Below, in pieces: positions 8,147 to 26,413 of a stretch of DNA of 64,000 nt (positions are counted from its first letter, which is position 1; every line of letters begins with the position of its first letter). The notes under the pieces were generated by a model that did no database searches, was not told where the DNA came from, and saw only the letters and a program-made list of their open reading frames with translations. The stretch comes from Streptomyces liangshanensis (GTDB lineage Bacteria; Actinomycetota; Actinomycetes; Streptomycetales; Streptomycetaceae), in the NCBI RefSeq assembly GCF_011694815.1, contig NZ_CP050177.1, positions 5,186,001-5,250,000 on the forward strand, written 5' to 3'. The position numbers were made by a program, and so were the translations under genes.

Positions 8147-9532
8147 TCAACTCACCTTGGGCGCGGCCCGCATGCCCACGTACACGCAGCTCGTGCCGTC
8201 GGCGAGGGTGGAGAAGACCACGGGCATCCAGCCCTCGCTGAACGACGGCCCCGCGCCCGTCCCCGCGAACACGCTGTCCGACACCGGTACGAGGCTGACG
8301 TCGAGCGGCGGCGAGAAGTCCTTCATTCCGTCGACGAACTCGTAGACCAGGTGCGGCGATCCGTCGCGCTCGCCGACGGTGATGACCACTCCCTCCCGCC
8401 GGTAGACGCCCGCGAACGGCGCGAGGTCCACCACGGGCGGCCGGGGCGGCGGCGCGAACGCGTCCGGCATCCGTACCCCGGCCAACTCGCCCAGCAGTTC
8501 CCGCATCAGCTCCCCGTACAGCCCCCGAGCGCCGCCGCCGTTCGTCAGCAGGGCCACGGCCACCCCCGCTCCCGGCACCACACGCAGGTACGCGTACTGC
8601 CCGATCGAGGCGCCGTCGTGGCCGAAGCCGGGAACGCCGGCCCAGTCGTACAGCGTCCAGCCCAGGCCCCAACCGTCCGCGCTGACCGTCCACTTGTCCG
8701 GCACGTCGACCTCCCGGCGCCGCATCGCGGCGACGGACTCCGCCGTCAGCACCCGCGTGCCGTCCGGCGCCGTACCGCCGTCGAGGTGCGCCCGGGCCAG
8801 GGCGACGACGTCGCCGGCGGTGGCGCAGACCCGCCCGTACGGTCCGGCCGAGCGCGGCATGAGGTCCCACGCGGGAGCCGGGTCCGGGTCCTGGCCCGGC
8901 TCTCCCAGGTGCCCCATCGCGGCCCGGAAGGACAGGACTTCCTCGGGCAGGGTCATCGTGCGCGCCAGCCCGAGCGGGTCGAGCAGCAGCTCCTTGAGCG
9001 CCCGGTCCCAGGTCAGCCCGGTCAGCACCTCGACGACGCGGCCCAGCACGTTGTAGCCGACGCTGCTGTACGAAACGGCCGTGCCCGGCGGGCAGTCGAG
9101 CGCGACGTCCTTCGCGGCCTCGACGTAACGGGCCAGGCAGTCGTCGCCGCGTCCGCTGTCGTGGGTGAAGTCGCACGTCAACCCACTGGTGTGGCTGAGC
9201 AGTTGGCGGACGGTGATGGCCTTCGTCGCCTCGGGGTCGGCGGTGGCGAACTCGGGCAGGACGTCCACCACCGGCGCGTCCAGGTCCAGTTGGCCGGTCT
9301 CGGCCAGCCGCATCACCAGGGTGGCGGTGTAGACCTTCGCGATCGAGCCGAGCTGGAAGACGGAGTCCGTCGTCGCCTCGACGCCGGTGCCGCGGTGCAG
9401 GACCCCGGAGGCCAGCTCGTGGACCATCCCGTCGGCGAGCACGGCGAGGGTCGCCGCCGGTACGTGGTGCGCGGCGCGCAGTTCGTCGAGCCGGGCCTGC
9501 CAGCGGCGGGTGTCGAAGCGTGAGGGCGTCAT
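8147..9532 (-). CDS. Serine beta-lactamase-like hydrolase (class C / DD-peptidase fold)
   Basis: 461 residues from ATG 9532, with GAAAGG 7 bases upstream. FQLGSIAKVYTATL supplies the SxxK nucleophile and general base. The second motif is YSSVGYNVLG, a YSS in place of the usual YxN. The C-terminal half includes FGHDGASIGQ, in the place of the HxG motif. There is no signal peptide, so it is probably a cytosolic esterase or peptidase of the beta-lactamase-related family, not a resistance enzyme. A strong promoter with overlapping repeats lies 90-125 bases upstream. Confidence 0.87.
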   Translation of the reverse strand: MTPSRFDTRRWQARLDELRAAHHVPAATLAVLADGMVHELASGVLHRGTGVEATTDSVFQLGSIAKVYTATLVMRLAETGQLDLDAPVVDVLPEFATADPEATKAITVRQLLSHTSGLTCDFTHDSGRGDDCLARYVEAAKDVALDCPPGTAVSYSSVGYNVLGRVVEVLTGLTWDRALKELLLDPLGLARTMTLPEEVLSFRAAMGHLGEPGQDPDPAPAWDLMPRSAGPYGRVCATAGDVVALARAHLDGGTAPDGTRVLTAESVAAMRRREVDVPDKWTVSADGWGLGWTLYDWAGVPGFGHDGASIGQYAYLRVVPGAGVAVALLTNGGGARGLYGELMRELLGELAGVRMPDAFAPPPRPPVVDLAPFAGVYRREGVVITVGERDGSPHLVYEFVDGMKDFSPPLDVSLVPVSDSVFAGTGAGPSFSEGWMPVVFSTLADGTSCVYVGMRAAPKVS

Positions 9533-10740: not shown

Positions 10741-11310
10741 TCACCCCTCGTCGCCACGCTCCCGTGTCGCCCGTCGGTGCCGTGGCCGGTGCGGCATCAG
10801 ATTGCGTACGTTCGCTTCGCCCGCGCCCACGATGGGCAGCCGCTGTGCCTGTGACGCGGGGAGGACTTCCGGCTCGCAGCGCGCCTCCGGCTCGTGGCGG
10901 GATTCCGGGTGCGGGTGCGGGTGCGTGGGCGCGGTTGAGTGCGGGCGGGCAGCCGTGTCCGGCGCGCCAGGTGTGCCCGGAGCTGGAGGCATCGGCTCCA
11001 CGTCGGCCGACGCGTCGTCGGCCGACTGGTCCGGGAAGCGGAGCAGCCTGCCCGAGGGAACGGGAAGGTCCTCCATGTCGGGGTGACCGGCCGCCGTGGG
11101 CTGCGCCGGGTCCGCCGCCCGTGCGTGTTCCGCCCAGCCGGTGCGATACCAGCGCACTTGATCCCGGATGACTTCCTCGTCCGTGAGTATGCGCACACCG
11201 TCGACACCGGCCTGCTGGACCTTCTGACCCAGCTCGATCAATAAGTCACCCAACAGCATGGCCACCCGGTCCTGTGGGACCGGAACGCCACCATCCCCTT
11301 CGTTGCCCAT
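10741..11310 (-). CDS. Hypothetical protein co-transcribed with the XRE regulator
   Basis: 189 residues, unrecognised. The N-terminal ~65 residues look folded and helical (VAMLLGDLLIELGQKVQQAGVD type heptads, then EEVIRDQVRWYRTGW). The rest is disordered: Pro, Ala and His rich, with a PTHPHPHPES run and an Arg-rich C-terminus. GAAGGAG lies 8 bases before the ATG and only 41 bases separate it from the XRE gene, so the two form an operon at the left edge of the phage-tail locus. It could be an anti-regulator or partner of the repressor; there is no direct evidence. Confidence 0.6.
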   Translation of the reverse strand: MGNEGDGGVPVPQDRVAMLLGDLLIELGQKVQQAGVDGVRILTDEEVIRDQVRWYRTGWAEHARAADPAQPTAAGHPDMEDLPVPSGRLLRFPDQSADDASADVEPMPPAPGTPGAPDTAARPHSTAPTHPHPHPESRHEPEARCEPEVLPASQAQRLPIVGAGEANVRNLMPHRPRHRRATRERGDEG

Positions 11311-11351
11311 GCGCGCTCTCCTTCACGCCCCCCCACGGGGCAGCCGATCCC

Positions 11352-11837
11352 CTAACTACTGGCCGGCAGGAATTGCTTCGCGACCTTCACGAAGATTTCC
11401 CGCAGCTCAGGGGGCACCCCCATTCTCCGTGCAGCCTCCTCCGGGCCCAGCCGCGGGGAGTCCTCTCCCGCCCCGGGCCCCGCCGGATCGGTCTGCTGCC
11501 GCACCGCGATCGGCAGGTCCTCCTCCGACAATCGCCCCGACCTGATGAGCATTTCTCTCAGCGGGATGCCGAGCACCGCCGCCAGTCTTCGCATGGTCTC
11601 CAGGTCGGGCATGCTCTGCCGCTGGAGCAGTCGGCTGACCGCAGCACGGTGCACCCCCGCGTCGTCCGCGAGCTTGGACTTGCCGCCACCCCGCGGATTG
11701 TCGATGTCGTATCCCTGACGCCGCATCAGGGATTCCACCCAGCCGGCGAACACGTCCAGTCCGTCCGCGCGGTTCCTGACACCGTCACCGCGGAAGCCCG
11801 GGTTGTTGCGGGCATCCGCCCGCGAGCCTGAACCCAT
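11352..11837 (-). CDS. XRE-family helix-turn-helix regulator of the tail locus
   Basis: 161 residues from ATG 11837 (GGGGAG 9 bases upstream). The Cro/C1-type HTH is about residues 55-110: KLADDAGVHRAAVSRLLQR, then PDLETMRRLAAVLGIPLREM. A ~40-residue basic N-terminal arm and a helical C-terminus (GPEEAARRMGVPPELREIF) flank it. It is divergent from the WhiB-like operon across 243 bases with two inverted repeats. By analogy with phage repressors it could hold the tail locus silent, but it has no obvious autocleavage domain. Confidence 0.8.
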   Translation of the reverse strand: MGSGSRADARNNPGFRGDGVRNRADGLDVFAGWVESLMRRQGYDIDNPRGGGKSKLADDAGVHRAAVSRLLQRQSMPDLETMRRLAAVLGIPLREMLIRSGRLSEEDLPIAVRQQTDPAGPGAGEDSPRLGPEEAARRMGVPPELREIFVKVAKQFLPASS

Positions 11838-11880
11838 TGTCTCGATCTCCCCTCGTCGCGGGAGACAGCGTACCGATCGC

Positions 11881-11934
11881 GCGCGCACCCATTGGTGTGC
11901 GCGCTCGCGCGTAGTTGTGGAGATGTCGCACAAC
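11881..11934. promoter_or_regulatory. Two inverted repeats between the XRE and WhiB-like genes
   Basis: GCGCGCAC (11881-11888) and GTGCGCGC (11897-11904) are perfect 8-bp arms with an 8-base spacer, 44 bases upstream of the XRE start. GTTGTG (11914-11919) and CACAAC (11929-11934) form a second pair. Both lie where an autoregulating XRE repressor would bind. The remainder of the gap (11935-12080) becomes AT-rich towards the WhiB-like gene. Confidence 0.45.
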
Positions 11935-12043
11935 GCGCAGGCCGGGTGGGGGACTTGGCGTGCAGTGCTGACACCCCCTCACGGAACGTAGTCGCTTGCG
12001 CACGCGCTCGCACCATGCAACGCTGATCACGCGTCCGCAATTG

Positions 12044-12059
12044 TCGAACAAATATTCCC
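12044..12059. promoter_or_regulatory. Degenerate LexA (SOS) box candidate
   Basis: TCGAAC-N4-ATTCCC compared with the actinobacterial LexA palindrome TCGAAC-N4-GTTCGA: the left half is perfect and the right half matches 3 of 6, giving 9 of 12 positions. It is 22 bases upstream of the WhiB-like start. SOS control would suit a tailocin-like locus, but the right half-site is poor. Confidence 0.25.
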
Positions 12060-12080
12060 ATACATGGGGAGGGGTTGCAC

Positions 12081-12362
12081 GTGCCTTCACCGATGACAGC
12101 GTCCTCAACCGCTGTGACCTTGGACTTCTGCCGCACGGACGAAGATCTCGACTGGCGCAGGGACGCCGCCTGCGCCGATCTTCCCCAACGTTTTGTGTTC
12201 ACCAAAGTCCCTTCCGAGGCCGCACCGGTATTGCGTGCCTGCAATCACTGCCCGATCCGTGAGGAGTGCGTCGCTGTCGTGGATCCCATGCGGACCTGGT
12301 TCGACGGGGTCAGCGGCGGGCGTCTGTGGCGCAACGGCCGCGAGGTAAGGCGGGCGGCGTGA
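12081..12362 (+). CDS. WhiB-like Fe-S transcription factor of the tail locus
   Basis: 93 residues from GTG 12081, with a purine-rich GGGGAGGGG 6 bases upstream. Four cysteines, C31, C54, C57 and C63, give the canonical C-x22-C-x2-C-x5-C that holds a [4Fe-4S] cluster in Wbl proteins. The turn after it is GVSGG (76-80) instead of the usual G[VI]WGG; a basic tail follows. Wbl proteins work by binding the sigma factor. Actinophages also carry whiB genes (for example TM4). It is first in a three-gene operon linked by GTGA overlaps and probably controls the tail genes. Confidence 0.88.
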   Translation: MPSPMTASSTAVTLDFCRTDEDLDWRRDAACADLPQRFVFTKVPSEAAPVLRACNHCPIREECVAVVDPMRTWFDGVSGGRLWRNGREVRRAA

Positions 12363-12871
12363 CGGACATGGGCGGCACACTCTGGATCGCCGCTCTCCTG
12401 CGGCACTTTCCCGAACTCCTGGCAGAACTAGCCCCGTCCGGCGGCCGCACCCTGCGCGAGCGCCTGGGCGGCGCCCCGGCCGGTGGCTCCGTAGCACCCC
12501 TGCGCCTCTACGTGTCGGATGCCATCCGCGATGTCACCGACGGCGTCGTGGAGTTGGAGGAGGCCGTACGGGAACGGCTCGGCCTCCCCCGGGTGGCCGC
12601 CGCCCCCGTGCCCGTACGCCTTCGCCGTATCGCGGGTCTTTCGGAGCGGATCGCCGGGGACCTTGACCTGGCCGCGCATGTGGAGGACGAGACCCGGCGG
12701 ATGGCCCGCCGGTGCGCCCGGGCGCTGGGCGATCCCGAGCAGTTGGTCCGCGTCGCCGGGCGCTGCCCCGCCTGCGACTCGGTGTCCCTGCGGGCGTTCC
12801 CCGAGCGAGCGACGGTGATGTGCGTGAATCCCGTCTGCCGCCACACACCGACGGTGGAGGTGGCGTCGTGA
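12359..12871 (+). CDS. Zinc-ribbon protein of the tail-locus regulatory operon
   Basis: 170 residues from GTG 12359, whose start overlaps the WhiB-like stop (GTGA). The body is helical (IAALLRHFPELLAELAP, then DVTDGVVELEEAVRERLGLP). The C-terminus has CPACDS and, 19 residues on, CVNPVCRH: two pairs of Cys that look like a zinc ribbon. Proteins of this build occur as hypothetical genes in actinophages and their remnants. A DNA-binding or sigma-contact role is plausible; the function is not recognised. Confidence 0.7.
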   Translation: MTDMGGTLWIAALLRHFPELLAELAPSGGRTLRERLGGAPAGGSVAPLRLYVSDAIRDVTDGVVELEEAVRERLGLPRVAAAPVPVRLRRIAGLSERIAGDLDLAAHVEDETRRMARRCARALGDPEQLVRVAGRCPACDSVSLRAFPERATVMCVNPVCRHTPTVEVAS

Positions 12872-13080
12872 GCGCCGGGACGACAGGTGCGGGCGGAGCG
12901 GCGAGCGTCGCGCTGATCTCGGCGGATCTGGCCGCCGCCGAGGTCGAGGTGTCGCCTGCGACCATCCGCAAGTGGGTCCAGCTCGGACACCTCATCGCGG
13001 CGGGACGCCAGGGCAGGCGGCTGCTCTACCGACTGGAGGATGTGTTCGCCGCGGAGCGCGCGGTACGCCGTAGGAGCTGA
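12868..13080 (+). CDS. Small MerR/excisionase-like HTH protein
   Basis: 70 residues from GTG 12868, overlapping the previous stop (GTGA) with GGAGG 7 bases upstream. A winged-helix segment, VSPATIRKWVQLGHLIAAGR followed by RRLLYRLEDVFAAE, is the helix-turn-helix-wing of MerR-N/excisionase-type proteins, which read a short DNA site and bend it. With no integrase in the locus a transcriptional role is more likely than excision. A strong terminator follows 32 bases later. Confidence 0.78.
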   Translation: MSAGTTGAGGAASVALISADLAAAEVEVSPATIRKWVQLGHLIAAGRQGRRLLYRLEDVFAAERAVRRRS

Positions 13081-13111
13081 ACCTACGACCGACGCACGGC
13101 CCACGTACGAC

Positions 13112-13151
13112 CGAGGAAGGCCCCGCCGGGACACCGGCGGGGCCTTCCTCG
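13112..13151 (+). terminator. Strong hairpin terminator after the regulatory operon
   Basis: A perfect 18-bp inverted repeat (13112-13129 and 13134-13151) with a GACA loop. It separates the WhiB-like operon from the tail structural operon, so the latter needs its own promoter in 13152-13363 or read-through. Confidence 0.85.
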
Positions 13152-13222
13152 TTGCCGGCGCTCGCCAACCGCGCCTCCGGAAAGGTCGGTTGCGGGATCA
13201 GCCACCCTCGATCACACTTGAA

Positions 13223-13268
13223 GCAGCGGCAGAGCTGCGCCCCTTCCGAGGGGCGGCGGACCTGCCGC
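13223..13268 (+). promoter_or_regulatory. Three consecutive hairpins in the leader of the tail operon
   Basis: GCAGC/GCTGC (13223-13238), GCCCC/GGGGC (13239-13254) and GCGGC/GCCGC (13253-13268) can fold one after another; the second and third share two bases and are mutually exclusive at the edge. TTTGTGTT follows the third, giving it the look of a weak intrinsic terminator 96 bases before the first tail gene. Possible attenuation or antitermination control. Confidence 0.35.
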
Positions 13269-13363
13269 TTTGTGTTGCCCGGAATCCCACTCCCCTGGGT
13301 CGCGACCGGGCCTCACCACTGATCCGCACCACGGCCCATCGCCTTCCGCGAAGGAGCGTCCAT

Positions 13364-13765
13364 GTGAGCGTTCTGAACTTTCCCGATGTGGAGCGACTCG
13401 TCGTCGACTTCCTTGAGGACCGGCCCGAAATGGTCGGCGTCACGGTCGACAACCGCCCGCCCGCCGGGTTCGACGGCACCCAGAAAGCCGTCCTGGTCTC
13501 CCGCGTCGGCGGCGTGTGGGTCGACGACCTGCATCTCGACAAACCGCTGTTGGACCTTGAGGTGTACGGCCCCGACAAGACCACGGCGCACGCCGTGGCT
13601 CTCGCCGCCCGCGCCTGTGTCCTGGAGCTGATCGGTACGCGGTACGGCACCGCGGTGGTCACCGATGTCGACGAGGCCGACGGACCTCGCTGGCTGCCCG
13701 ACTACAACCGCCCGGCCGGCAATCGCTACCTGGCCACGCTCCGCCTGTCCATCCGCCCCGCGTGA
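13364..13765 (+). CDS. Putative tail terminator / tail completion protein
   Basis: 133 residues from GTG 13364, with AAGGAG 7 bases upstream. The sequence (FPDVERLVVDFLEDRP, VTVDNRP, AVLVSRVGG, LDLEVYG, AHAVALAARACVLEL) follows the alpha/beta pattern of the siphophage tail terminator (gpU, SPP1 gp17 type), which caps the tail tube. Its place directly before the tail tube gene is the standard one in siphophages. In a headless particle it would finish the end that normally joins the head. The family assignment rests on pattern and position. Confidence 0.72.
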   Translation: MSVLNFPDVERLVVDFLEDRPEMVGVTVDNRPPAGFDGTQKAVLVSRVGGVWVDDLHLDKPLLDLEVYGPDKTTAHAVALAARACVLELIGTRYGTAVVTDVDEADGPRWLPDYNRPAGNRYLATLRLSIRPA

Positions 13766-13799
13766 ATCCGCAACACCCAACCCTTCCGAAGGAGTTCCC

Positions 13800-14405
13800 A
13801 TGGCACCCGGTCCCAACAGCAGCAAGGAAATCCGCGTCGCAGGCACCGGAAAGGTCCTGGTGGCCGCCCCTGTCGGAGCCACCGGAGCGCCGGCCGCGCC
13901 GATCGACACCACCGTGGCGTGGACCGGCTGGACCGAGCTCGGCTACACCTCCACCGACGGCATCAAGCTCAGCAAGAAGGACAAGATCGACCAGGTGGAC
14001 GGCTGGCAGTCGGTGAGCGCGCTGCGCTACATCTACTCCGACCGCGAGCTGACCGTGAAGTTCCAGCTGCTCCAGATCAACAAGAGCACCCTGCCGTTCT
14101 TCATGGGCGGCGGTGCCACGTCGCTCCTGGCCTCCCCGGCCGCGTCCGGCACGTTCAAGTACGACCTCTCCGCCAACCCCAAGGCGGACGAACGCCAGCT
14201 CGGCTTCGAGTTCACCGACAGCAACGGCACCGGTGACGTGTCGTACCGCTTCGTCATCCCGCGCGGCCAGGTCACCGAGACCGAGGAGATCTCGATGACC
14301 CGTACGGGCGCGATCAAGCTCGGTGTCACCTTCACGGCCTACGCGCAGGACGACACGTCGCTGCCGCTGGCGACGTGGCTGATGAAGGACACGGCGTTCG
14401 CGTAA
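13800..14405 (+). CDS. Major tail (tube) protein
   Basis: 201 residues, ATG 13800 with GAAGGAG upstream. Built from beta strands with the pattern of actinophage major tail proteins: SSKEIRVAGTGKVLVAP-like N-terminus, WTELGYTSTDGIKL near residue 45, RYIYSDRELTVKFQL near 82, and VSYRFVIPRGQVTE near 150. It would polymerise as hexameric rings around the tape measure to form the non-contractile tube. A Ser/Ala-rich insertion occurs near 105-120. It is followed, as in siphophages, by the tail chaperones. Confidence 0.85.
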   Translation: MAPGPNSSKEIRVAGTGKVLVAAPVGATGAPAAPIDTTVAWTGWTELGYTSTDGIKLSKKDKIDQVDGWQSVSALRYIYSDRELTVKFQLLQINKSTLPFFMGGGATSLLASPAASGTFKYDLSANPKADERQLGFEFTDSNGTGDVSYRFVIPRGQVTETEEISMTRTGAIKLGVTFTAYAQDDTSLPLATWLMKDTAFA

Positions 14406-14481
14406 CCGCTACAGGTACGGGGGTGGCCGACGCGCTACCCCCGTACCTCCGTACCCCCAACACAAGGAACAGGAGACCGAC

Positions 14482-14772
14482 ATGGCGGGATTCAACGTCA
14501 ACGCCGCACGTGCCCAGCGCCTCGAAGCGCTCGGCCGTGCCTGGGGTTTCGATCTGGACGAGGACTCGTTCGAGCTGCCGACGGAGCTGACCCGTACGAC
14601 GGCGCGCAAGCTGCGGGACCTCGACGACAACGACGTGGACGGTCTGCTGCGACTGCTGCTCGGCGAGCAGCAGTTCACGCGCTTCGAGCGGCACGACGTC
14701 ACGATGCAGGACATCGCGGCGATCCTGGAGGCGTACGGCAAGGAGACGGGGCTCGGCCTGGGGGAAGACTGA
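14482..14772 (+). CDS. Tail assembly chaperone, short form (G)
   Basis: 96 residues, acidic and helical (FDLDEDSFELP, TTARKLRDLDDNDVDGLLRLL). It is the G protein of the siphophage G/G-T pair that binds the tape measure during tail assembly and is absent from the finished tail. It ends LGLGED at a TGA only a few bases after a slippery run; the longer G-T form arises by a -1 shift at that point. The T reading frame continues without its own convincing start or Shine-Dalgarno. Confidence 0.85.
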   Translation: MAGFNVNAARAQRLEALGRAWGFDLDEDSFELPTELTRTTARKLRDLDDNDVDGLLRLLLGEQQFTRFERHDVTMQDIAAILEAYGKETGLGLGED

Positions 14773-15167
14773 GCCTCGGCGAGCTCGTCGACGAGCACGC
14801 CGAGGCCCTGGAGGCCGACCTGTTGCGTTACTACGGCACGGACCTGCTGGACTGGCACCGCGGCCGCCTCACCTCCCGCCGCCTCGCGGTACTGATCCGA
14901 CACCTCCCCCGGGACAGCGCGGTGGCCCGCGAACTCCACGGCGAGTCGGCCGACTGGACGGTGACGGAGTACCTCCTGGCCCACGTGGCCGACCAACTGG
15001 CGGAAGCGAACTGGATGTTCGCCACGGTCAACCGCGACGAGGACGCCGATCCACCGGAGGCGCCGGAGCCCGTTCCCCGCCCCGGCGGGACGTCCGGTGC
15101 CGAGGCCGGGGAACGGCCCGCGCCTGCCCCACCCGGCCCGGCGGAAATCGCGCACTTCTTTTCCTGA
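14482..15167 (+). CDS. Tail assembly chaperone, frameshifted G-T fusion
   Basis: Join of 14482-14763 with a -1 shift and 14763-15167, about 228 residues. After GGG at 14761-14763 the ribosome re-reads from 14763, giving GRLSLGELVDEHAEALEADL, then a T domain typical of actinophage chaperones (RYYGTDLLDWHRGRL, SRRLAVLIRHLP, EYLLAHVADQL) and a Pro-rich tail. The frame relationship (-1), the gene order and the sequence of the T part all fit the conserved programmed frameshift of long-tailed phages. Loss of this shift normally stops tail assembly. Confidence 0.8.
14760..14766 (+). other. -1 ribosomal frameshift site
   Basis: GGGGGAA, read as CTG GGG GAA in the G frame, nine bases upstream of the G stop. 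The P-site glycine tRNA can slip back one base and still pair with GGG. A slippery G-run followed by A at this point is usual in actinophage tail chaperone genes. A GC-rich stretch follows that could slow the ribosome. Confidence 0.7.
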
Positions 15168-15174
15168 GACGTCT

Positions 15175-15564
15175 CTAGGAGCTGAGGAGAGCCAGGGCCA
15201 GGGAAAAGACGGCGACCGCGGCGGACGCCGCCATGAACGAGAGGGACAACCGGCCTTTTGTCATCTGGTCCGGGGTCTCCGCGTTTCGTGGATCGCGAGG
15301 ATCGTATATCACGGTGACCGTGTCACCGATGTCGGCGGGGGGATAGCGGAACGGCCCCAGATCGAAATGCAGTTCCATCCCGTCGGGTGACGTGTGCCGG
15401 ACCATGAGATTCACGGTGCCACTGGGGCCTTTCGCTTTGTTCACGCATATCGCGGAGACTCGCACCCCGCGCTTCCGTAACGCCCTGCCCCGGCTGTGAA
15501 TCTTGGTGAAGAAGAGCAGGGAAAGTGATGCCAGGGCAGTAACCGTGATCGCAGGTCCATTCAT
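15175..15564 (-). CDS. DUF3592-type membrane protein, inserted antisense in the tail operon
   Basis: 129 residues from ATG 15564. An N-terminal membrane helix (about 4-22) is followed by a soluble DUF3592-like domain (RGVRVSAICVN, then DIGDTVTVIYDPRDPRNAE) and a C-terminal membrane helix (about 108-127). It points against all the tail genes, between the chaperone and the tape measure, like a phage moron with its own promoter. DUF3592 proteins are widespread and of unknown function. A role in immunity or envelope change in the producer is possible but untested. Confidence 0.72.
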   Translation of the reverse strand: MNGPAITVTALASLSLLFFTKIHSRGRALRKRGVRVSAICVNKAKGPSGTVNLMVRHTSPDGMELHFDLGPFRYPPADIGDTVTVIYDPRDPRNAETPDQMTKGRLSLSFMAASAAVAVFSLALALLSS

Positions 15565-15689
15565 GTTCCACCCCTGTACTCGACCTGGACGACACCGAAG
15601 ATCGGCGCGGCTCATTGTCGTGCGGCCGAGTTTCCGTGTCAAGGGTCGTCAAGTGCGGGCGGCGGGCGCAGAAAGAGAAGGAATCGACT

Positions 15690-16250
15690 ATGGCAGATCA
15701 CTCGCTCGGCGAGGTCTACGACCAAGTGGTCGAGGTGAAGCGAAAGCTCGAAGCCGGCGGTGGCATTGCCACCCAGGCGTACATCAACGAGAAGTTCAAG
15801 GAGCACAAGGGCGGGGGTGTCACCAAGGAATATCTGGACGAGAAGTTCAAGAGTGCCAAAGAGGATCCGACGCAGGCCGAGCAGTGGGCCAAGGTGATTG
15901 GTGCGGACGGAGTCGTCAAGGCGATCCAGGACTTCAAGATCTCGTCGCTCGCCAGCCTGTCCGCACTGGGTGCCGTACTTGTGGGTTTCCTGGTCAGCAC
16001 GATCGTGGACAAGGATCTGCTGACGGTCGCCGCGCTGAAGAAGTTCAATCTGGCCCGCGATGAAAGAGGAATTCCCCGGTCTATTCCGAGGGAGACGCCC
16101 ACCCCCGCGAGGACCACTCCTCAGTCGGCGCCGGTGAGCAGTATCGACATCGACCGGCTCAAGAGCATGCGCAGCGCCTCCATCGCACTGTCCCGATCCC
16201 TCAGCGATCTCACCAAGGAAGTCACCAACGCCGCACGGCAGATCGCCTGA
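15690..16250 (+). CDS. Single-pass membrane/coiled-coil protein before the tape measure
   Basis: 186 residues, ATG 15690 with an AAGGAA upstream. N-terminal 85 residues are charged and helical with two related copies of a YINEKFKEHKGGG / YLDEKFKSAKED unit. One hydrophobic segment (about 86-107, SLASLSALGAVLVGFLVSTIV) follows, then a basic Pro/Thr linker and an amphipathic C-terminal helix. Not recognised. It sits 18 bases before the tape measure gene, so it is in the tail operon. It could be a second lumen or membrane-penetrating component, or a second moron. Confidence 0.65.
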   Translation: MADHSLGEVYDQVVEVKRKLEAGGGIATQAYINEKFKEHKGGGVTKEYLDEKFKSAKEDPTQAEQWAKVIGADGVVKAIQDFKISSLASLSALGAVLVGFLVSTIVDKDLLTVAALKKFNLARDERGIPRSIPRETPTPARTTPQSAPVSSIDIDRLKSMRSASIALSRSLSDLTKEVTNAARQIA

Positions 16251-16267
16251 CACGACAGGGAACCCTG

Positions 16268-17338
16268 ATGTCACTCGCTCGAAGTTCGACCACCGCAGCC
16301 TCCTCACTCTCGCGATTCCGCACCACGATCACCCAAGCGGCGTCGGCCGTACGGCAACTTCAGACCTCCGCCGGCGGGGCGGGCCCCACGCTGGACAGGA
16401 TCCGTGGAGGGTCGGACCGGCTGAACACCTCGTTGGGCAGGCTCAGGACCGCCGCGACCACCGGAGGCAGCGGCCTGGACAGGATCAAGTCGACCGCCGT
16501 GTCCGCCGACGGCGGGATGGGGAAGGCCCGGGCCGGGGCCGACAAGTTCAAGACCTCGCTCGACCGGCTCAAGAGTTCCGCCGACAAGGCCAAGAACGCC
16601 CTCCAGGACGTCAAGAGGCAGGCCGACGGGGTGGAGAAGTCCGTCGGGAAGGCCGGGAAGAACGCCGACAAGGGCGGGAAGTCCATGGACGGGCTCGGGA
16701 AGGGGCTCAAGGGCGCGTCGCTCGCGCAGAGGGGACTCAACCTCGCCATGGCCGCCAGCCCGTTCGGGCTCATCATGACGCTGCTCGCGCCCCTCATCGC
16801 GCGGTTCGTCAACATGGACAAGGTCATGGCCGTCGCCAAGCGGGGCATGACGGCGGCCTGGAACGCCATGCGGTCCGCGTCCTCCTCCGCAGCCCGGTTC
16901 CTCGGCCCGCTCTTCAAGGGCGTCGTCAACGCCTTCCTGCTGCCCACCCGCATGCTCGTCCGGGGGCTCAACTCCCTGATCGGCGGGCTCAACCAGGTCA
17001 AGTTCAGCGTTCCCGACTGGGTGCCCGTCATCGGCGGCAAGGGCTTCGCGTTCAACCTTCCCCGCATCCCGGTGCCCCAACTCGCGCAGGGCGGCATCGT
17101 CGAGGCCAGGGCCGGCGGCCGGCTCGCACTCATCGGAGAGGGAGGCGAGGCCGAGGCCGTCATCCCGCTCTCCCGGCTGGAGCGCATGCTCGGCGGGCAC
17201 CCAGGCGGAGCCGCCGGAATGACCCGGCTCGCCCAGGCCGTCGAGCGCCTCGCCGAACGCCCCGTACACATCGAGGTCGACTCGCAGACCATCGCTCGCG
17301 CTGTCCTCGTCGGCCAGCGCAAGCTCGCCAGGAGGTGA
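16268..17338 (+). CDS. Short tail tape measure protein
   Basis: 356 residues. The first ~150 are helical and periodic, with repeats of the LDRIRGGSDRLNTSLGRLR kind rich in Gly, Ala, Lys and Ser. A hydrophobic block (about 155-180, LNLAMAASPFGLIMTLLAPL) matches the membrane-active part of tape measures. The C-terminus has QGGIVEARAGGRLALIGEGG followed by EAEAVIPLSRL, a hallmark of actinophage tape measures. At about 1.5 angstrom per residue this would set a tube of roughly 50 nm, well below the 100-300 nm of most Streptomyces siphophages. No peptidase or lytic domain is embedded. Confidence 0.85.
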   Translation: MSLARSSTTAASSLSRFRTTITQAASAVRQLQTSAGGAGPTLDRIRGGSDRLNTSLGRLRTAATTGGSGLDRIKSTAVSADGGMGKARAGADKFKTSLDRLKSSADKAKNALQDVKRQADGVEKSVGKAGKNADKGGKSMDGLGKGLKGASLAQRGLNLAMAASPFGLIMTLLAPLIARFVNMDKVMAVAKRGMTAAWNAMRSASSSAARFLGPLFKGVVNAFLLPTRMLVRGLNSLIGGLNQVKFSVPDWVPVIGGKGFAFNLPRIPVPQLAQGGIVEARAGGRLALIGEGGEAEAVIPLSRLERMLGGHPGGAAGMTRLAQAVERLAERPVHIEVDSQTIARAVLVGQRKLARR

Positions 17339-17346
17339 GACAGGAC

Positions 17347-18192
17347 ATGGCAAGGAATCTGTGGATCGGCAAGCCGGGACTCCTGCGGGAGATCACGCAG
17401 GCCGCCAAGAGCTGGGACCGCGGAGCCGAGTTGAACGTCAGCGAGTTCAAGTCGTTGGAGGGGCAGATCACCACCATCGCGCCCGCACGTACCGCGCGCC
17501 GGCTCAAGTTCGCCTGGGACTGGCTGGAGCCGGCCGACGCCGAGCACCTGATCCGGCTTGCCCGGCGTGTCAACGGCCCCGGCATGTTGGGCCGCAACGT
17601 GTACGCCGGCCGGTCCGTCGTCGTGATCGATCCCGCGGCCGTCAATCTGCTGGACCCCTACCAGGCGGCGGGACAGACCCTGAATCCCGGCGGCCACGAG
17701 CACTGGTTCACCGTGCAGGGAGCGATCACCATCAGTCCCACCGTCGACGACGTCGTCGTCGGCAGTTGTGACAACGCGGCCACCAAGATCGGCTGGCGGC
17801 ACGGGGTCTGGCCCGGCTGGCCCGTGATGCCGGGTATGCGGATCTCCTGGCTGCTTCCGCCCGACTGGGATTCCGAAGTGGCCACCGCCCAACTGGATTG
17901 GAAGGACGTGGACGGCACCTATCTGTCCACGACGTCGGCCGCCGGCCCGCTGGTCACCGGCACGGCGCCCGCTGGCGCAGCCTTCGTCACCCCCGTCGGT
18001 GCCCCCGGCAGGACCGGGCTGACCGGTCTGGCCGGAGCGAGCCTGACCATCGGCGAGGAGCCCGTGGCCCTGTCGCTCGGCGACGGCTGCCCGGCCATGG
18101 CCGTCACCGGCTACACCGAGACACCCGCCACCCGCCTGCCCTACCGCAGTGTCAGCATCGATCTGGTGGAGGTGGCAGGTGCAGCCCTCTGA
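17347..18192 (+). CDS. Distal tail protein (Dit-like)
   Basis: 281 residues, ATG 17347; AGGAGG overlaps the end of the tape measure gene. The N-terminal half (NLWIGKPGLLREI, then FAWDWLEPADAEHLIRLARR, then GPGMLGRNVYAGRSVVV) has the organisation of actinophage Dit or first minor tail proteins, which form the ring between tube and hub. The C-terminal half is beta-rich with GWRHGVWPGWPVMPG and may be a galectin-like or carbohydrate-binding module. Its end overlaps the next start by 14 bases. Confidence 0.75.
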   Translation: MARNLWIGKPGLLREITQAAKSWDRGAELNVSEFKSLEGQITTIAPARTARRLKFAWDWLEPADAEHLIRLARRVNGPGMLGRNVYAGRSVVVIDPAAVNLLDPYQAAGQTLNPGGHEHWFTVQGAITISPTVDDVVVGSCDNAATKIGWRHGVWPGWPVMPGMRISWLLPPDWDSEVATAQLDWKDVDGTYLSTTSAAGPLVTGTAPAGAAFVTPVGAPGRTGLTGLAGASLTIGEEPVALSLGDGCPAMAVTGYTETPATRLPYRSVSIDLVEVAGAAL

Positions 18193-20794
18193 CGAGAGGT
18201 TCGACGCAGCGCTCGCCGCGCCGGAGCGTACCCCCGTCCACTCCACCCGCCTCGGCGGCGAGGAGCTCGGCGAGCAGATTCAGTCCTGGAAGGTCGAGCG
18301 GGCCTACAACACCGACCTCCCCGAGGCCATGCGGGCGTTCAGCGGCAGCGCCTCGGCGCAGTTCGAGGCGCAGCTGGGCGGCCGGACCGAGGAGCGGAAC
18401 GCCGACGAGGCCGGCGCGGGCCCGGTCCCGGAGCCCGCCCCGCGCCTGTACTCCGCCTGGGCGGACCGGGCCACCGGCGACGCCGTACGCCCCGGCCAGT
18501 CCGTCGTCCACGAGACGGGCGTCAACGGCCGCACGCTGCCGGCCTTCCGGGGCACCATCCGCTCCCGTACGGCGGCGTCCGGCAGCGACACCGTCACCGT
18601 CCAGGCCCTCGACGGCGCCGAGCGGCTGCGGGGCCCCGCTTCGCTCCCCCGCCCCTACCACGGCGTCTGGACCGGCCTGCGGATCGCGTCCGCGCCCTGG
18701 TGCGTGGACGAACTGCTCCGGCAGGGCGGCATCCACACCTGCCCGCCGCCTCGCGCGCCGCAGGCCGACGCCGACGACACCAACGCCTTCACCGCGCTGT
18801 ACGCCTCGTTGCACGGTGGCGTCAACGCGACCTACGGACAGCCCGAGTCGGTCCCCTCGATCGGCGACTACGACTGGATCCGCGAAGGTGCTCCCTTCGA
18901 GATGGCCCTCATGCCGAAGGCGGCCGGACTCACCGCATCGTGGATGCCGCGCTCGCGGTTCGTCGTGCCCGGCAAGGTGTTCCTGCTCGAATGCTGGGTC
19001 AACACGGCCAAGAGCAGGGGCAACATCATCGAGCTCAGTGTCGTGCTGGACCGGAGCGGTGGGGCCTTCGGCTACCTGAAGGGGAGCGTCGACATCGCGA
19101 CGGGTACGGTCTTCATCCACTCCGGGACCCAGGGGGGACCCTTCTGGTATTTCACCTGGACGGTTGCCGCGCTGGCGGCCCTCAGGGGCAGCTGGCACCT
19201 CGGATTCCTCTTCGACACCCGGTCGTCGGGGACCAGCGTGCTGCCGACGGTCGCCCCCCGGCTGACCGGCCCCGACGGCTCGTACTACGCCGGCCCCACC
19301 GCGACCTACGTCCAGCCGTCGGGGAGCCAGCCGCGCGCGGAGGTCCACCACGTCGACCTCACCACCGACATGGCGGTGGAGTGCGTCCAGCTGACCGACC
19401 GGATCTGGCCCGACATCCCCTCCTACCCCCGCGCCGAGTGGGAACAGCGGGGTAAGTGGACCAAGGGCGCGGTGCTGGACGACGAGGCGTTGCCGATCTA
19501 CGCCATGCCCAGGGTGACCGGTTCGCAGTGGGACGTGATCACCGAGATCGCCCGCGCGAGCATGTCCACCGCGGAGTTCGACGAACAGGGCGTCTTCCAC
19601 TGGAAGGGACCGACCCGCTTCGGCAGGGTGCCGGCCGAGCCCGACCTCACCGTGACCACCAGAAGGAACATCGCCGCTCTCACCGTCGGCGAGGAGATCG
19701 ACGCCTGCCGCAATCACTGCGAGCAGCCGTACCAGGACTGGTCCGGCGTCGGCCGCGTGAACGGTGACTCCGTGGACGACACGGCCATCCGGAGAATCGA
19801 TCCCGGTACGTCGGTGGAGATCTCCTACGCCGTCGCCGAGGACGAGTTCGACATCGGACCCCTGGTCGTGACCGACGACTCGGTGGTGAACGACGGTCAC
19901 CGGGTTCGCTTCGGTACAGCCCCGACCGGTGGTACAGCGGTCAAGGGCGTGGTCTCCGTCAGCTGCCGTCGCGAGGGACCCACGTACTTCGCCCGCTTCA
20001 CCAACACCGGGACCGTACCGCTGTGGACCGTCACCAAGGACGGCAAGCCATCGGCCCGGATCGTGCCGCAGAAGGCGACCGGCGATCCCCAACTGCGCCA
20101 GGCGGCCTGGTGGAGCCCCGATAGCCAGCAGTACTACGGCCGGCAGCAGTACGCGGCCCCCGCCTCCGAGTGGGTGCAGAACGGCGGTTCGGCGACCACC
20201 CTCGCGCAGACCATGCTCAACGCCGGCCGCTACCCGGTGCCGGTGCTGGGGGAGGTCGAGGTGCTGCACGATCCGCGGATCCAACTCGGCGACGCCGTCC
20301 GGGTCGTGGACACGGCGGGAGCGCAACTCGACACACTCGCCTGGGTGGTCGGGACGCGCACGAACTACGCCGCGGGAGCCGCGCCGCAGCAGACGCTCAC
20401 ACTGCGGGGGACCTCGTACAACGGCGTACCGCGGGACGCGGGGCTGACACCGGACGGGCCGATCGACCCGTCGTACGGCACACGGCGTACGTACGCCCAG
20501 GTCACCGCCCAGTACGCGACGCTCGCCGACCTGAGGGCGGGTGAGCCCGACTACCGCGCGCTGCTGGTTCCGCTGCCGGTGACCGCCGGTGCGGCCGCCA
20601 GATCGGCGGGCGCGCCCCACGCCGCCTCGGAGGTCGCGCCTGAGGACGTACCCGAAGCCGAGCAGCCTGCCGACGACCCGCTCCCCCCGGAGCCTCCGCG
20701 GCCACCGGTACCGGTCGACAGCCCCGGGGCGGGCGCGGGCGACCGGGGCACGAGCCCCGACATCCTGCCGCCGTCTCGGGAGGGCCGCGGCTGA
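18179..20794 (+). CDS. Tail hub / receptor-binding protein with inserted lectin-like domain
   Basis: 871 residues from GTG 18179 (GGAGG 6 bases upstream). Residues 1-215 and ~385-790 look like the two halves of an actinophage tail-hub protein (QIQSWKVERAYNTDLPEAM; later TAEFDEQGVFHWKGPTRFG and LGEVEVLHDPRIQLGDAVRV). Between them (~220-385) is a beta-rich domain (FVVPGKVFLLECWVNTA, LSVVLDRSGGAFGYLKGSVD) resembling a concanavalin-A/LamG jelly roll. The last ~80 residues are Pro/Ala/Glu rich and disordered. It would seal the tube tip and bind the target surface. Confidence 0.72.
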   Translation: MQPSDERFDAALAAPERTPVHSTRLGGEELGEQIQSWKVERAYNTDLPEAMRAFSGSASAQFEAQLGGRTEERNADEAGAGPVPEPAPRLYSAWADRATGDAVRPGQSVVHETGVNGRTLPAFRGTIRSRTAASGSDTVTVQALDGAERLRGPASLPRPYHGVWTGLRIASAPWCVDELLRQGGIHTCPPPRAPQADADDTNAFTALYASLHGGVNATYGQPESVPSIGDYDWIREGAPFEMALMPKAAGLTASWMPRSRFVVPGKVFLLECWVNTAKSRGNIIELSVVLDRSGGAFGYLKGSVDIATGTVFIHSGTQGGPFWYFTWTVAALAALRGSWHLGFLFDTRSSGTSVLPTVAPRLTGPDGSYYAGPTATYVQPSGSQPRAEVHHVDLTTDMAVECVQLTDRIWPDIPSYPRAEWEQRGKWTKGAVLDDEALPIYAMPRVTGSQWDVITEIARASMSTAEFDEQGVFHWKGPTRFGRVPAEPDLTVTTRRNIAALTVGEEIDACRNHCEQPYQDWSGVGRVNGDSVDDTAIRRIDPGTSVEISYAVAEDEFDIGPLVVTDDSVVNDGHRVRFGTAPTGGTAVKGVVSVSCRREGPTYFARFTNTGTVPLWTVTKDGKPSARIVPQKATGDPQLRQAAWWSPDSQQYYGRQQYAAPASEWVQNGGSATTLAQTMLNAGRYPVPVLGEVEVLHDPRIQLGDAVRVVDTAGAQLDTLAWVVGTRTNYAAGAAPQQTLTLRGTSYNGVPRDAGLTPDGPIDPSYGTRRTYAQVTAQYATLADLRAGEPDYRALLVPLPVTAGAAARSAGAPHAASEVAPEDVPEAEQPADDPLPPEPPRPPVPVDSPGAGAGDRGTSPDILPPSREGRG

Positions 20795-20869
20795 CCCGGC
20801 GCCGCCTCCACCCTGACGCCCGCCTCGACATCCGCGCCTTCCTCGTCCGTACAGCCAGGAGGTCCTGCC

Positions 20870-21511
20870 ATGGCCCAGCTCACCCCGCTCGGGAATCTGC
20901 CGTACCCGCAGCCCACCGACGCCGCCAACGTCCCTCTCCACATCCAGTCACTCGCCGAGTCCATCGACGGCCGTACCGTCCTGCGCTTCCTCGACGCGGC
21001 GACCCGCGACGCCAGGGTCACCGCGCCGGTCCAGGGCATGCTCGTCTGGCTCAACACCCCCGGCCGGTTCTTCCACTACTCCGGCACCCAGTGGCAGCCC
21101 GTCGTGCCGGGCGCCGTGCACAAGGCCAACACGACGGCCGGCACCCTCGCGGTCACCGCCTACACCGAGACGCTCACCGGCTCCACCGGCGATCCGACGG
21201 CGGTCACGTTCACCGCGCCCCTCTCCGGCTCGGTCCTGGTCTCGGTGGGCGCGCGCATCAGCGGCAGCGCGGCCTCCGCGTCCTTCATGTCGGCGAACAT
21301 CCGCACCGGTACGACTCTCACGCTCGCCGCCGCCGACGCGCGCGCCGCGATCGTCAGTGGTACGAACCAGTGCTCCGCCTCCACGCAGTTCCAGGTCAAC
21401 AGCCTCGCACCCGGCGCCGTCTGCACCGCGACCGCCGCCTACAAGTCGGCCGCCACGACGAACACCGCCACCTTCACCAACCGATTCGTGACCGTGACGC
21501 CCCTGATGTGA
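20870..21511 (+). CDS. Short tail-fibre-like minor tail protein
   Basis: 213 residues, ATG 20870 with AGGAGG 8 bases upstream. The N-terminus, LTPLGNLPYPQPTDAANVP, then a short helix, is the particle-anchoring segment common at the start of actinophage minor tail proteins. From ~90 on it is all beta, Thr/Ala/Ser rich (TAVTFTAPLSGSVLVSVGAR), as in C1q-like or pyocin-knob trimeric heads. It is much shorter than normal fibres and has no collagen repeats. Probably a receptor-binding tip accessory to the hub. Confidence 0.7.
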   Translation: MAQLTPLGNLPYPQPTDAANVPLHIQSLAESIDGRTVLRFLDAATRDARVTAPVQGMLVWLNTPGRFFHYSGTQWQPVVPGAVHKANTTAGTLAVTAYTETLTGSTGDPTAVTFTAPLSGSVLVSVGARISGSAASASFMSANIRTGTTLTLAAADARAAIVSGTNQCSASTQFQVNSLAPGAVCTATAAYKSAATTNTATFTNRFVTVTPLM

Positions 21512-21542
21512 CACCCCCGTCCACGACGTGAGGAGCCGGCCC

Positions 21543-22454
21543 ATGGCCGCACCGCTGTCCGCCGACGCCCTCGTCCGCGCCCTGCGCGGCGAGGGCGTCC
21601 GCGTCGCCGAGCACGGCGACTGGAAGACCCACAACCGGAACCACAAGGGCCCTTGGGGCCCCGTCCATGGAGTGATGCTGCACCACACCGCGGGCGTCGA
21701 CAGCCTCGCGCTCTGCCGCGACGGCATTCCGTCCCTGCCCGGCCCCCTCTGCGTCGGCCTGCTCACCAAGGACGGCACGGTCCATCTCGTCGGCCACGGA
21801 CGGACGAACCACGCGGGCAACGGCTCCGCCGCTGTCCTCGAAGCCGTACGCGCCGAGCGGCCCCTGCCCGCGAGGGGGCCGGACACCGTGGACGGCAATG
21901 CCCGTTTCTACGGCTTCGAGATCGAGAACCTCGGCAACGGACGTGACCCCTATCCCGCCGCCCAGCTCGACGCGGCCGAGCGGCTGTCGGCGGCATTGTG
22001 CCGGGCGCACGGCTGGTCGGCGAGGAGTGTGGTCGCGCACAAGGAGTGGACGCGACGGAAGGTCGACCCGTCGTTCTCGATGTCTCTGATGCGGGACCGC
22101 GTCAGCGCCCGCCTGCGCTCGAAACCGGCGCCTCCGGCCCCACCCCCCGGGCCCGGCACACCCCCGGAACCGGCCTACGAGACCTTCCCCGGTGCCGCCT
22201 TCTTCGTGCCGGGCCGCAGCAGCCCCCTGATCACGTCGGTCGGCCGCCGGCTGGTTGCCGAGGGCTGCGGACGGTACGACGTCGGCCCCGGTCCCGTATG
22301 GGGTGCGGCCGACAACCGTTCGTACGCCGCGTGGCAGCGCAAGCTCGGCTACCGCGGCGCCGACGCCGACGGCATTCCAGGGCGGGCCAGTTGGGAGCGG
22401 CTGCGTGTCCCTCGTACCGGAGGAACCGTTCTGACCGGGGGTGGGGCCGCGTGA
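21543..22454 (+). CDS. N-acetylmuramoyl-L-alanine amidase (endolysin type) with cell-wall-binding domain
   Basis: 303 residues, ATG 21543 with GAGGAG upstream. Amidase_2 / PGRP-like zinc amidase (about 25-190): GVMLHHTAG with the first Zn-binding His at 47, YGFEIENLG and VVAHKEWTRRKVDP. A Pro-rich linker (~193-212) leads to a peptidoglycan-binding-like domain (SYAAWQRKLGYRGADADGIP) found at the C-terminus of Streptomyces phage endolysins. It cleaves the bond between MurNAc and L-Ala. No signal peptide, so it needs a holin or particle delivery. Confidence 0.87.
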   Translation: MAAPLSADALVRALRGEGVRVAEHGDWKTHNRNHKGPWGPVHGVMLHHTAGVDSLALCRDGIPSLPGPLCVGLLTKDGTVHLVGHGRTNHAGNGSAAVLEAVRAERPLPARGPDTVDGNARFYGFEIENLGNGRDPYPAAQLDAAERLSAALCRAHGWSARSVVAHKEWTRRKVDPSFSMSLMRDRVSARLRSKPAPPAPPPGPGTPPEPAYETFPGAAFFVPGRSSPLITSVGRRLVAEGCGRYDVGPGPVWGAADNRSYAAWQRKLGYRGADADGIPGRASWERLRVPRTGGTVLTGGGAA

Positions 22455-22705
22455 CGCAGTCGGAAGCCGAGGGCATCGCCGTCGAACTGGAGCGCCTGCA
22501 CCGGTCGGTGGACGTCGGATTCGCCACCACCCGCGGCGACTTGGCGCTGCTGCTCCAGCGCGTCGACCAGACCGACAAGGCCGTGGACGAGCACGAGGAC
22601 CGGCTCGACGCGCTGGAGCGTTCGCGCTGGCCCCTGTCGTCGCTCGCTGCGGTGACGTCGTGCGCCGCGCTGGCGCTGACCATCTGGCAGGCCTCAGGAA
22701 AGTGA
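22451..22705 (+). CDS. Holin-like small membrane protein
   Basis: 84 residues from GTG 22451, overlapping the amidase stop (GTGA). Residues 1-58 form a charged coiled coil (heptads around VDQTDKAVDEHEDRLDALE); one membrane helix follows (about 62-80, LSSLAAVTSCAALALTIW) with a short tail. Size, topology and place directly after the endolysin match the membrane proteins seen in actinophage lysis cassettes. It could permeabilise the producer to release particles. A terminator closes the operon 13 bases later. Confidence 0.68.
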   Translation: MTQSEAEGIAVELERLHRSVDVGFATTRGDLALLLQRVDQTDKAVDEHEDRLDALERSRWPLSSLAAVTSCAALALTIWQASGK

Positions 22706-22717
22706 CGTGACGCGGGG

Positions 22718-22752
22718 ACGCCCCCGGCCGTGTGTCCCGCGGTCGGGGGCGT
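22718..22752 (+). terminator. Intrinsic terminator of the tail operon
   Basis: ACGCCCCCGGCC (22718-22729) pairs with GGTCGGGGGCGT (22741-22752) with one G-T wobble; TTCTCC follows, so there is a short U-rich tail. It ends the tail operon and faces the convergent GGDEF-EAL gene. Confidence 0.78.
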
Positions 22753-22784
22753 TTCTCCGCGTTCCCGGGTGGGACCGTTCCGCC

Positions 22785-26403: not shown

Positions 26404-26413
26404 ATCTTGTCTG

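Follow-up and report, generated by a model that had tools for sequence, protein, structure and literature searches.

Organization of the tail cluster

The DNA analysed here, called the window, is a 64,000-nucleotide stretch of Streptomyces liangshanensis (contig NZ_CP050177.1, positions 5,186,001 to 5,250,000), whose genome is a single contig of 7.7 Mb. At 10741-22762 of the window lies a cluster of regulators, then tail genes, then lysis-type genes, which we consider likely to be a chromosomally kept, headless, non-contractile (F-type) tail particle module of Streptomycetaceae. Gene calls, profile matches and fold models of the distal tail protein (Dit) and the hub bore out the sequence-only reading made earlier, namely a headless tail gene set in siphophage order with open reading frames and with ordinary chromosomal genes on both sides. 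That reading had also held all genes to be intact with good ribosome sites; the genes are open, but one of them, for the chaperone GT, lacks its own start and is predicted to be read through a -1 frameshift.

The cluster begins with two genes on the reverse strand, divergent from the rest: a cluster-linked accessory protein (g189, 10741..11310), which had no Pfam match and homologs in 7/29 related loci, and an XRE/CI-like repressor (11352..11837; HTH_3 3e-9, phrog_3949 repressor 1e-14), in which Pfam and PHROG profiles found no peptidase domain. Between the repressor and WhiB genes is a palindrome (11879..11904) with the core GCGCGCAC-N8-GTGCGCGC, a candidate operator whose form recurs in three related loci (L088, L090, L097) and, slightly altered, in L091; the type B loci described below often carry GTTGCG-N8-CGCAAC in its place. 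Three regulator genes follow on the forward strand, encoding a WhiB-like protein with four cysteines (12093..12362; PF02467 1.7e-5), whose pattern C-x20-32-C-x2-C-x5-C was kept in 54/58 relatives, a protein with CxxC and CxxxxC-type cysteine pairs that is zinc-ribbon-like by eye (12368..12871; phrog_8013 4e-6), and a MerR/HTH_17 DNA-binding protein (12868..13080; HTH_17 2e-6, phrog_2474 6e-14). Relatives of chaperone G were found in 170 named genomes, and the best 80 of these, with flanks of at most 10 kb, formed the 80 named loci used below. Three of the four regulators were present in 70-72 of them and WhiB in 58; the zinc-ribbon-like gene, found in 71/80, is thus linked to the cluster. A perfect 18-bp hairpin (13112..13151) at the regulator/tail gene boundary ends the regulator genes, and a strong closing hairpin (22710..22762) follows the last gene of the cluster, with folding energies of -45.4 and -46.6 kcal/mol (z -6.8 and -5.8), respectively. 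The tail genes had been described as lying between strong terminators; two strong hairpins are indeed present, but a terminator consensus scan, which needs a T run, listed neither.

The tail genes, all on the forward strand except one, start with the tail terminator (13364..13765; phrog_123 1e-23), the tail tube protein (13800..14405; PF25681 1.7e-58), the assembly chaperone G (14482..14772; phrog_10551 5e-23) and the T part of GT in the -1 frame (14766..15167; phrog_5813 5e-31). A small DUF3592-like membrane protein on the reverse strand (15175..15564; PF12158 8e-4, below its cut-off) comes next, followed by TMPa (15690..16250; no Pfam match), a tape-measure partner that is coiled-coil-like by eye and has one hydrophobic segment; both genes are exchangeable. 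The tape measure protein has 356 residues (16268..17338; phrog_1535 9e-13). At 1.5 Å per tape-measure residue, the predicted tube would be roughly 50 nm long with the tape measure alone and roughly 80 nm with TMPa.

Structural models assigned the next two genes to the tail tip. Dit (17347..18192, forward; predicted local distance difference test score, pLDDT, 85) carries a carbohydrate-binding-module-like insert at residues ~96-240, and the central hub (18179..20794, forward; pLDDT 71), whose class we take to be gp27/VgrG, carries a ConA-lectin-like insert at residues ~199-428; the models thus suggest that each protein holds an inserted sugar-binding-type domain. No Pfam or PHROG family matched either protein with a useful E-value, so their identities come from the AlphaFold fold models; against solved structures, sequence search returned no hit for the hub and a single one, at E=1, for Dit. 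The hub fold also resembles chain 9gtr_q of the S. coelicolor contractile injection system (CIS) on structure comparison. Among the VIA-align rows for the hub were jelly-rolls of lectins and of clostridial neurotoxin proteins that span just the insert region, a widespread fold from which no function is drawn. The arrangement recalls the evolved Dit of Lactobacillus phage J-1 (PDB 5ly8), whereas here the lectin-like domain sits in the hub and another module in Dit, and identity is 9%.

Three further forward-strand genes complete the cluster: a fibre-like tail protein placed by gene order (20870..21511; phrog_16452 3e-14, a family without known function), an Amidase_2 endolysin (21543..22454; Amidase_2 9e-19, phrog_880 endolysin 2e-68) and a small membrane protein, a possible lysis partner (22451..22705; phrog_5225 7e-24). 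The last had been called holin-like; a small membrane protein it is, but the holin part is weak, with an XhlA match at E 0.14 and a PHROG family of unknown function. The G+C content is 65-69% in the 2-kb segments starting from 11001 to 16001, with the lowest value of the whole window at 15001-17000, while most remaining segments have 71-77%; the TMPa and DUF3592 genes, at 61%, are the lowest in the cluster.

Up to 20 kb was fetched around 29 relatives and six weaker matches. Type A loci have Dit and hub in common with the window, whereas type B loci have window-like regulators through GT, two tape measures, an SPP1-type Dit (PF22768 3e-10) and a different hub. Type C comprised three loci, and two more (L036, L058) fit no type fully. 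In type C (L037, L038, L039), a DnaE-type polymerase and ImuB/DinB-like genes were seen by eye downstream of the tail genes, which hints at a link to DNA damage.

Frameshift signal and selection

At the end of G, the string CTG GGG GAA (14758..14766, forward) marks the point from which GT is open in the -1 frame. The slippery site CTGGGGGAA was identical in 78/81 loci (the 80 named loci and the window), and the -1 frame stayed open for at least 90 codons in 80/81; GGGGGAA is a common slippery sequence of tail chaperone genes. GGG accounts for 41/257 glycine codons in the window's own tail genes, yet the slippery site is near-invariant. A stem six bases past the site had 305/322 paired cells in 23 type A loci, where one pair switches between C-G and T-A, and 725/798 in the 57 other loci; this hairpin is argued from pair counts within coding sequence, with clear covariation at one pair only. 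Folding energy past the site (mean z -1.42 over the 80 loci) was no better than at control offsets (-1.48, -1.17). These results indicate that GT is made by a -1 frameshift, a signal that would yield both chaperone forms.

The ratio of nonsynonymous to synonymous substitution rates (dN/dS) was calculated by the Nei-Gojobori method for a single genome pair, the window and Streptomyces sp. SID3212 (L088), which carries the cluster at the same site. As the sequence-only reading had led one to expect, most tail genes showed purifying selection, with dN/dS of 0.04-0.25, comparable to two flanking genes (0.14, 0.30). The values were 0.04 for the terminator, 0.10 for the HTH protein, 0.12 for G and for XRE, 0.13 for the tube, 0.18 for the zinc-ribbon-like protein, 0.22 for the hub, 0.24 for Dit, 0.26 for WhiB and 0.32 for g189; the fibre, the amidase and the last gene lie outside the SID3212 contig and hence outside this comparison. 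In-frame stops within the aligned stretches of relatives were found in 2/70 for XRE and 1/19 for the amidase and in none of 14 other genes. The hub alignment left out four of 22 sequences, namely L094 (cut by the contig end), L134 (short), and L093 and L097 (stop flags); the flag in L093 was an artefact of start extension, whereas the first 155 residues of the L097 hub may be disrupted. From these comparisons, the tail cluster is kept by purifying selection in the chromosome.

Absence of head, sheath and integration genes

Similarity and inspection by eye turned up no head, sheath or integrase gene in the called neighbourhood of the cluster, although not every neighbour was profiled and no integrase profile search was made. 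The absence of portal, capsid and sheath noted earlier was confirmed for the whole host genome, in which portal PF04860, capsid PF05065 and sheath PF17482 had 0 matches, and head genes were found in 0/80 related loci with four head-protein queries, all from one prophage. The head, packaging and integration genes of a complete prophage were thus not found, nor were the capsid, portal and terminase that a gene-transfer agent would hold inside the cluster. In the host genome phrog_2, which we take to be the terminase large subunit, had a single match, at 20 bits (window 28876-29280); the ORF was read as a helicase-like ATPase, and the result is uninformative because phrog_2 also matches 11/14 controls.

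The cluster could instead be the tail half of a split system, with heads or a helper phage supplied by other genes as in a satellite or gene-transfer agent. Tail completion genes are present, so head joining is possible in principle; however, the HK97-type portal had no match in 22/30 genomes carrying the tail set, host included, and in the other eight lay more than 500 kb from the cluster or on another contig, and the host has no PF05065 capsid. These searches covered PF04860 (HK97-type portal) and PF05065 only, and on their results we regard a split system as very improbable. The sheath gene PF17482 is also present in 19/30 carrier genomes, whereas the host genome has none; contractile and non-contractile systems are therefore not mutually exclusive.

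Distribution and chromosomal sites

The tube search gave matches in 51/199 genomes of the same genus. Thirty (host included) had at least 51% tube identity over the whole protein, and the remaining 21 were weaker, with a best whole-length match of 40%; one of these, G008, has two tube pieces of 51-58% identity beside rpoC, a decayed copy. The set thus occurs in roughly one of every seven species sampled in the genus (30/199), often beside rpoC and rpsL. The 80 named loci came from Streptomyces, apart from one Kitasatospora and two records under other names. In a class-level sample, 11/394 genomes matched: nine belong to the same genus (the host counted, and one of the nine weak), another family supplied one at E 3e-37, and the last was close to the threshold. 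A hub profile matched 5/150 genomes of a family sample, four of them from two other genera. The hub had 166 database homologs among 7992 candidates scored, mostly labelled 'hypothetical protein'; among the 120 listed, those with an organism name were Streptomyces or Kitasatospora. In 50,697 phage records neither the hub nor G had a relative, while the tube had 457 matches, with identity of at most ~34% among the 40 listed. Viral contigs held no relative of tube or hub and eight matches of G, seven at 41-46% and one at 67%. The last of these, L184, is an 11.3-kb viral-collection contig consisting of one headless cluster cut at the repressor and the last gene, and is probably mislabelled as virus. 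The plasmid collection held one record with a tube relative at 35%.

Judged from the positions of RpoC and S12 and the flanking genes, by eye and among the matches listed, the rpoC-rpsL interval holds 14/30 copies and the other 16 are at different places, with some genomes split over many contigs. Among the 80 named loci, rpsL and rpsG stood alongside in 46 and rpoC matches in 6, and rpsL was upstream and antiparallel in 44/44 loci with full genes. Sixteen rpoC-rpsL regions were fetched: eight held another gene set, three unrelated sets, four partial or remnant clusters, and that of the host was empty, RpoC and S12 being 0.45 kb apart. The eight with another set (L070-L074, L079-L081) include, by eye and without profile, a CRP-like regulator, a cyclase-like protein and a Pycsar-effector-like membrane protein; L066-L068 carry a possible peptide natural-product cluster, conjugation-like genes and sugar-transfer genes. 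The partly deleted clusters at rpoC/rpsL imply repeated loss. Strict vertical descent at this site was rejected, since rank correlations with rpsL-rpsG distance were positive but modest (0.23-0.46; genes with 39-44 loci, those below 90% coverage dropped, XRE with only 5 usable loci).

The window copy is part of a 14.7-kb insertion whose bordering genes are adjacent in 33/35 other genomes. The gap between the luciferase-like and GGDEF-EAL genes was at most 233 bp in 30/35, 2.1-2.3 kb in three, and the genes were far apart in two. As far as known, the site is occupied likewise only in SID3212. The proposed check for the set at one and the same locus thus gave a divided answer: SID3212 shares the site and many copies lie at rpoC-rpsL, but most genomes lack a copy at the window's site, and conservation of that site as a general rule was rejected. 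With decayed copies and an empty own site in most species, the unit is therefore old but gained and lost.

Partial or broken clusters near rpoC or rpsL in L069 (G166), L075 (G008), L077 (G172) and L078 (G041), the G008 region stopping short of rpsL, would be expected if the cluster were a prophage remnant in decay that had lost its head genes and whose tail genes were not yet broken. The low dN/dS, the near-invariant frameshift signal, the regulators kept along with the tail genes, and the same headless gene set in 80 loci and in 29 other surroundings argue to the contrary, and we hold this explanation to be very improbable. Several observations nevertheless weigh against a maintained tail particle module. 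Besides these broken clusters, which together with the own site empty in 33/35 genomes make the unit dispensable, the choice of the best 80 of 170 favours intact copies; dN/dS was higher for GT (0.40) and the tape measure (0.46), both of which carry replaced ends; the holin assignment is weak; and no LexA box convincing for SOS control was found in the cluster with a 14-base motif (18 matches with at most 2 mismatches over the 12.3-kb cluster and 17/54 promoter regions, no clear signal). Disrupted tail genes in close relatives and a scattered distribution were among the findings named beforehand as speaking against domestication, and they apply in part, since relatives include decayed copies and the family occupies several sites; domestication is still well supported by selection, the frameshift signal, the headless loci, a host genome free of HK97-type portal, capsid and contractile sheath, the site shared with SID3212 and the rpoC-rpsL location in many species.

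Replacement of the tape-measure partner

Comparison of the window with SID3212 showed a sharply bounded 1.45-kb block that is replaced, comprising the GT end, DUF3592, TMPa and the tape-measure start. DNA identity was 95-99% up to ~15,000, 51-70% through the block, 86% at 16,500 and 97% from 16,650; a second drop occurs at the hub C-terminus, past 20,550. The window's DUF3592 and TMPa had no match in SID3212, which has a different TMPa. Where tape-measure C-termini were more than 80% identical, TMPa was below 35% in 6/7 type A and 175/223 type B pairs, which are not independent. The tape-measure N-terminus followed TMPa: in type A its identity was 0.35 where TMPa differs vs 0.92 in the single similar pair, and in type B 0.66 vs 0.89. 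The rank correlation of TMPa was 0.33 (A) and 0.45 (B) with the N-terminus and 0.17 and 0.32 with the C-terminus. It thus seems that TMPa is matched to the N-terminus of the tape measure, which would make TMPa part of the particle, and TMPa with the first ~80 tape-measure residues is probably a swappable module setting activity. This natural swap between sister species is a ready experiment on the role of the tape-measure partner.

The same block might be a polymorphic effector-immunity cassette, in which a membrane-acting TMPa effector carried in the tube would dock on the tape-measure N-terminus and DUF3592-like proteins would confer immunity; we put this forward only as a speculation and think it rather doubtful. 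If true, a non-contractile tail would deliver exchangeable protein cargo. DUF3592-like ORFs were found in 38/78 cassettes (2/80 loci gave no reading and TMPa was not found in 12/78), several consecutive in some. DUF3592 as universal immunity was rejected, as such ORFs occurred in these 38/78, by eye in 6/28 loci of the largest TMPa cluster, and not in SID3212. In the cassettes of L131 and L138, four to five such hits stand in a row, some overlapping.

Relation to known systems and proposed function

Searches of open PMC papers (titles and abstract starts, among the matches listed) found no description of non-contractile tails of Streptomyces. One paper mentions, for S. ambofaciens, expression of a tail gene that does not belong to a provirus. 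Like the Listeria monocin as presented in PMC6872733, the cluster has regulatory, tail and putative lysis modules and no capsid or excision genes; monocin, however, belongs to a host of a different phylum, and the Streptomyces cluster, whose killing is putative, adds a WhiB-like regulator, an exchangeable TMPa module and sugar-binding-type inserts in both Dit and hub, differences drawn from description. F-pyocin and rhizoviticin share with the predicted particle a flexible headless non-contractile tail plus lysis genes, here putative, but their producers are Gram-negative (PMC10811719). That paper calls F-type tailocins rare and, besides its own, names F-pyocin and monocin only. The Streptomyces contractile injection system (SLP/CIS) is likewise chromosomal, derived from phage tails, found in the same genus and similar in hub fold, whereas the tail cluster and its host genome have no sheath. 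TMPa resembles the CIS effectors Tme and Sle1, as outlined in PMC11126660 and PMC13277306, in its coiled coil, transmembrane segment and modular, exchangeable functional part; those effectors are loaded in contractile particles, and the likeness is one of description.

An intact set kept by selection across many Streptomyces chromosomes therefore probably serves the bacteria as a weapon or for delivery. In gene content and selection the cluster agrees with an F-type tailocin, with the particle and the killing putative. In the proposed mechanism, the repressor would hold the cluster silent, and the WhiB-like and MerR-like proteins would turn it on. With the tape measure wrapped by the chaperones, a tube some 50-80 nm long would be built on the Dit-hub tip. 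The amidase and the membrane protein would lyse some cells and release the tails, whose tip would attach to a cell-envelope glycan of related actinobacteria. The tape measure and TMPa would then go into the target membrane and kill or alter that cell.

WhiB-like proteins regulate development and redox responses, which fits a tail acting on the producing cell or its own mycelium, in cell death, lysis or development, in the manner of the intracellular contractile systems of Streptomyces. Such systems are reported to act on the producer in PMC11126660, PMC13277306, PMC12237407 and PMC10020575. However, the amidase and the sugar-binding-type tip domains would suit release and binding of another cell, and the host genome has no sheath match, though 19/30 carriers have one. 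We see action on the producer as a real possibility, albeit an unlikely one, and the tail particle as probably antibacterial. If particles are made, they would be a protein-based weapon or means of delivery that is new for Streptomyces, the main antibiotic-producing genus, which is also studied for contractile nanomachines, and the first F-type tailocin of Actinobacteria found in the open PMC literature searched.

Outside the cluster, the tRNA-Lys at 26413 was rejected as an attachment site, since the EAL and M6 genes stand between it and the cluster; no search for boundary repeats was made. A beta-lactamase-family gene (8147-9532) stands between the luciferase-like and acetyltransferase genes and is absent from the sister species SID3212.

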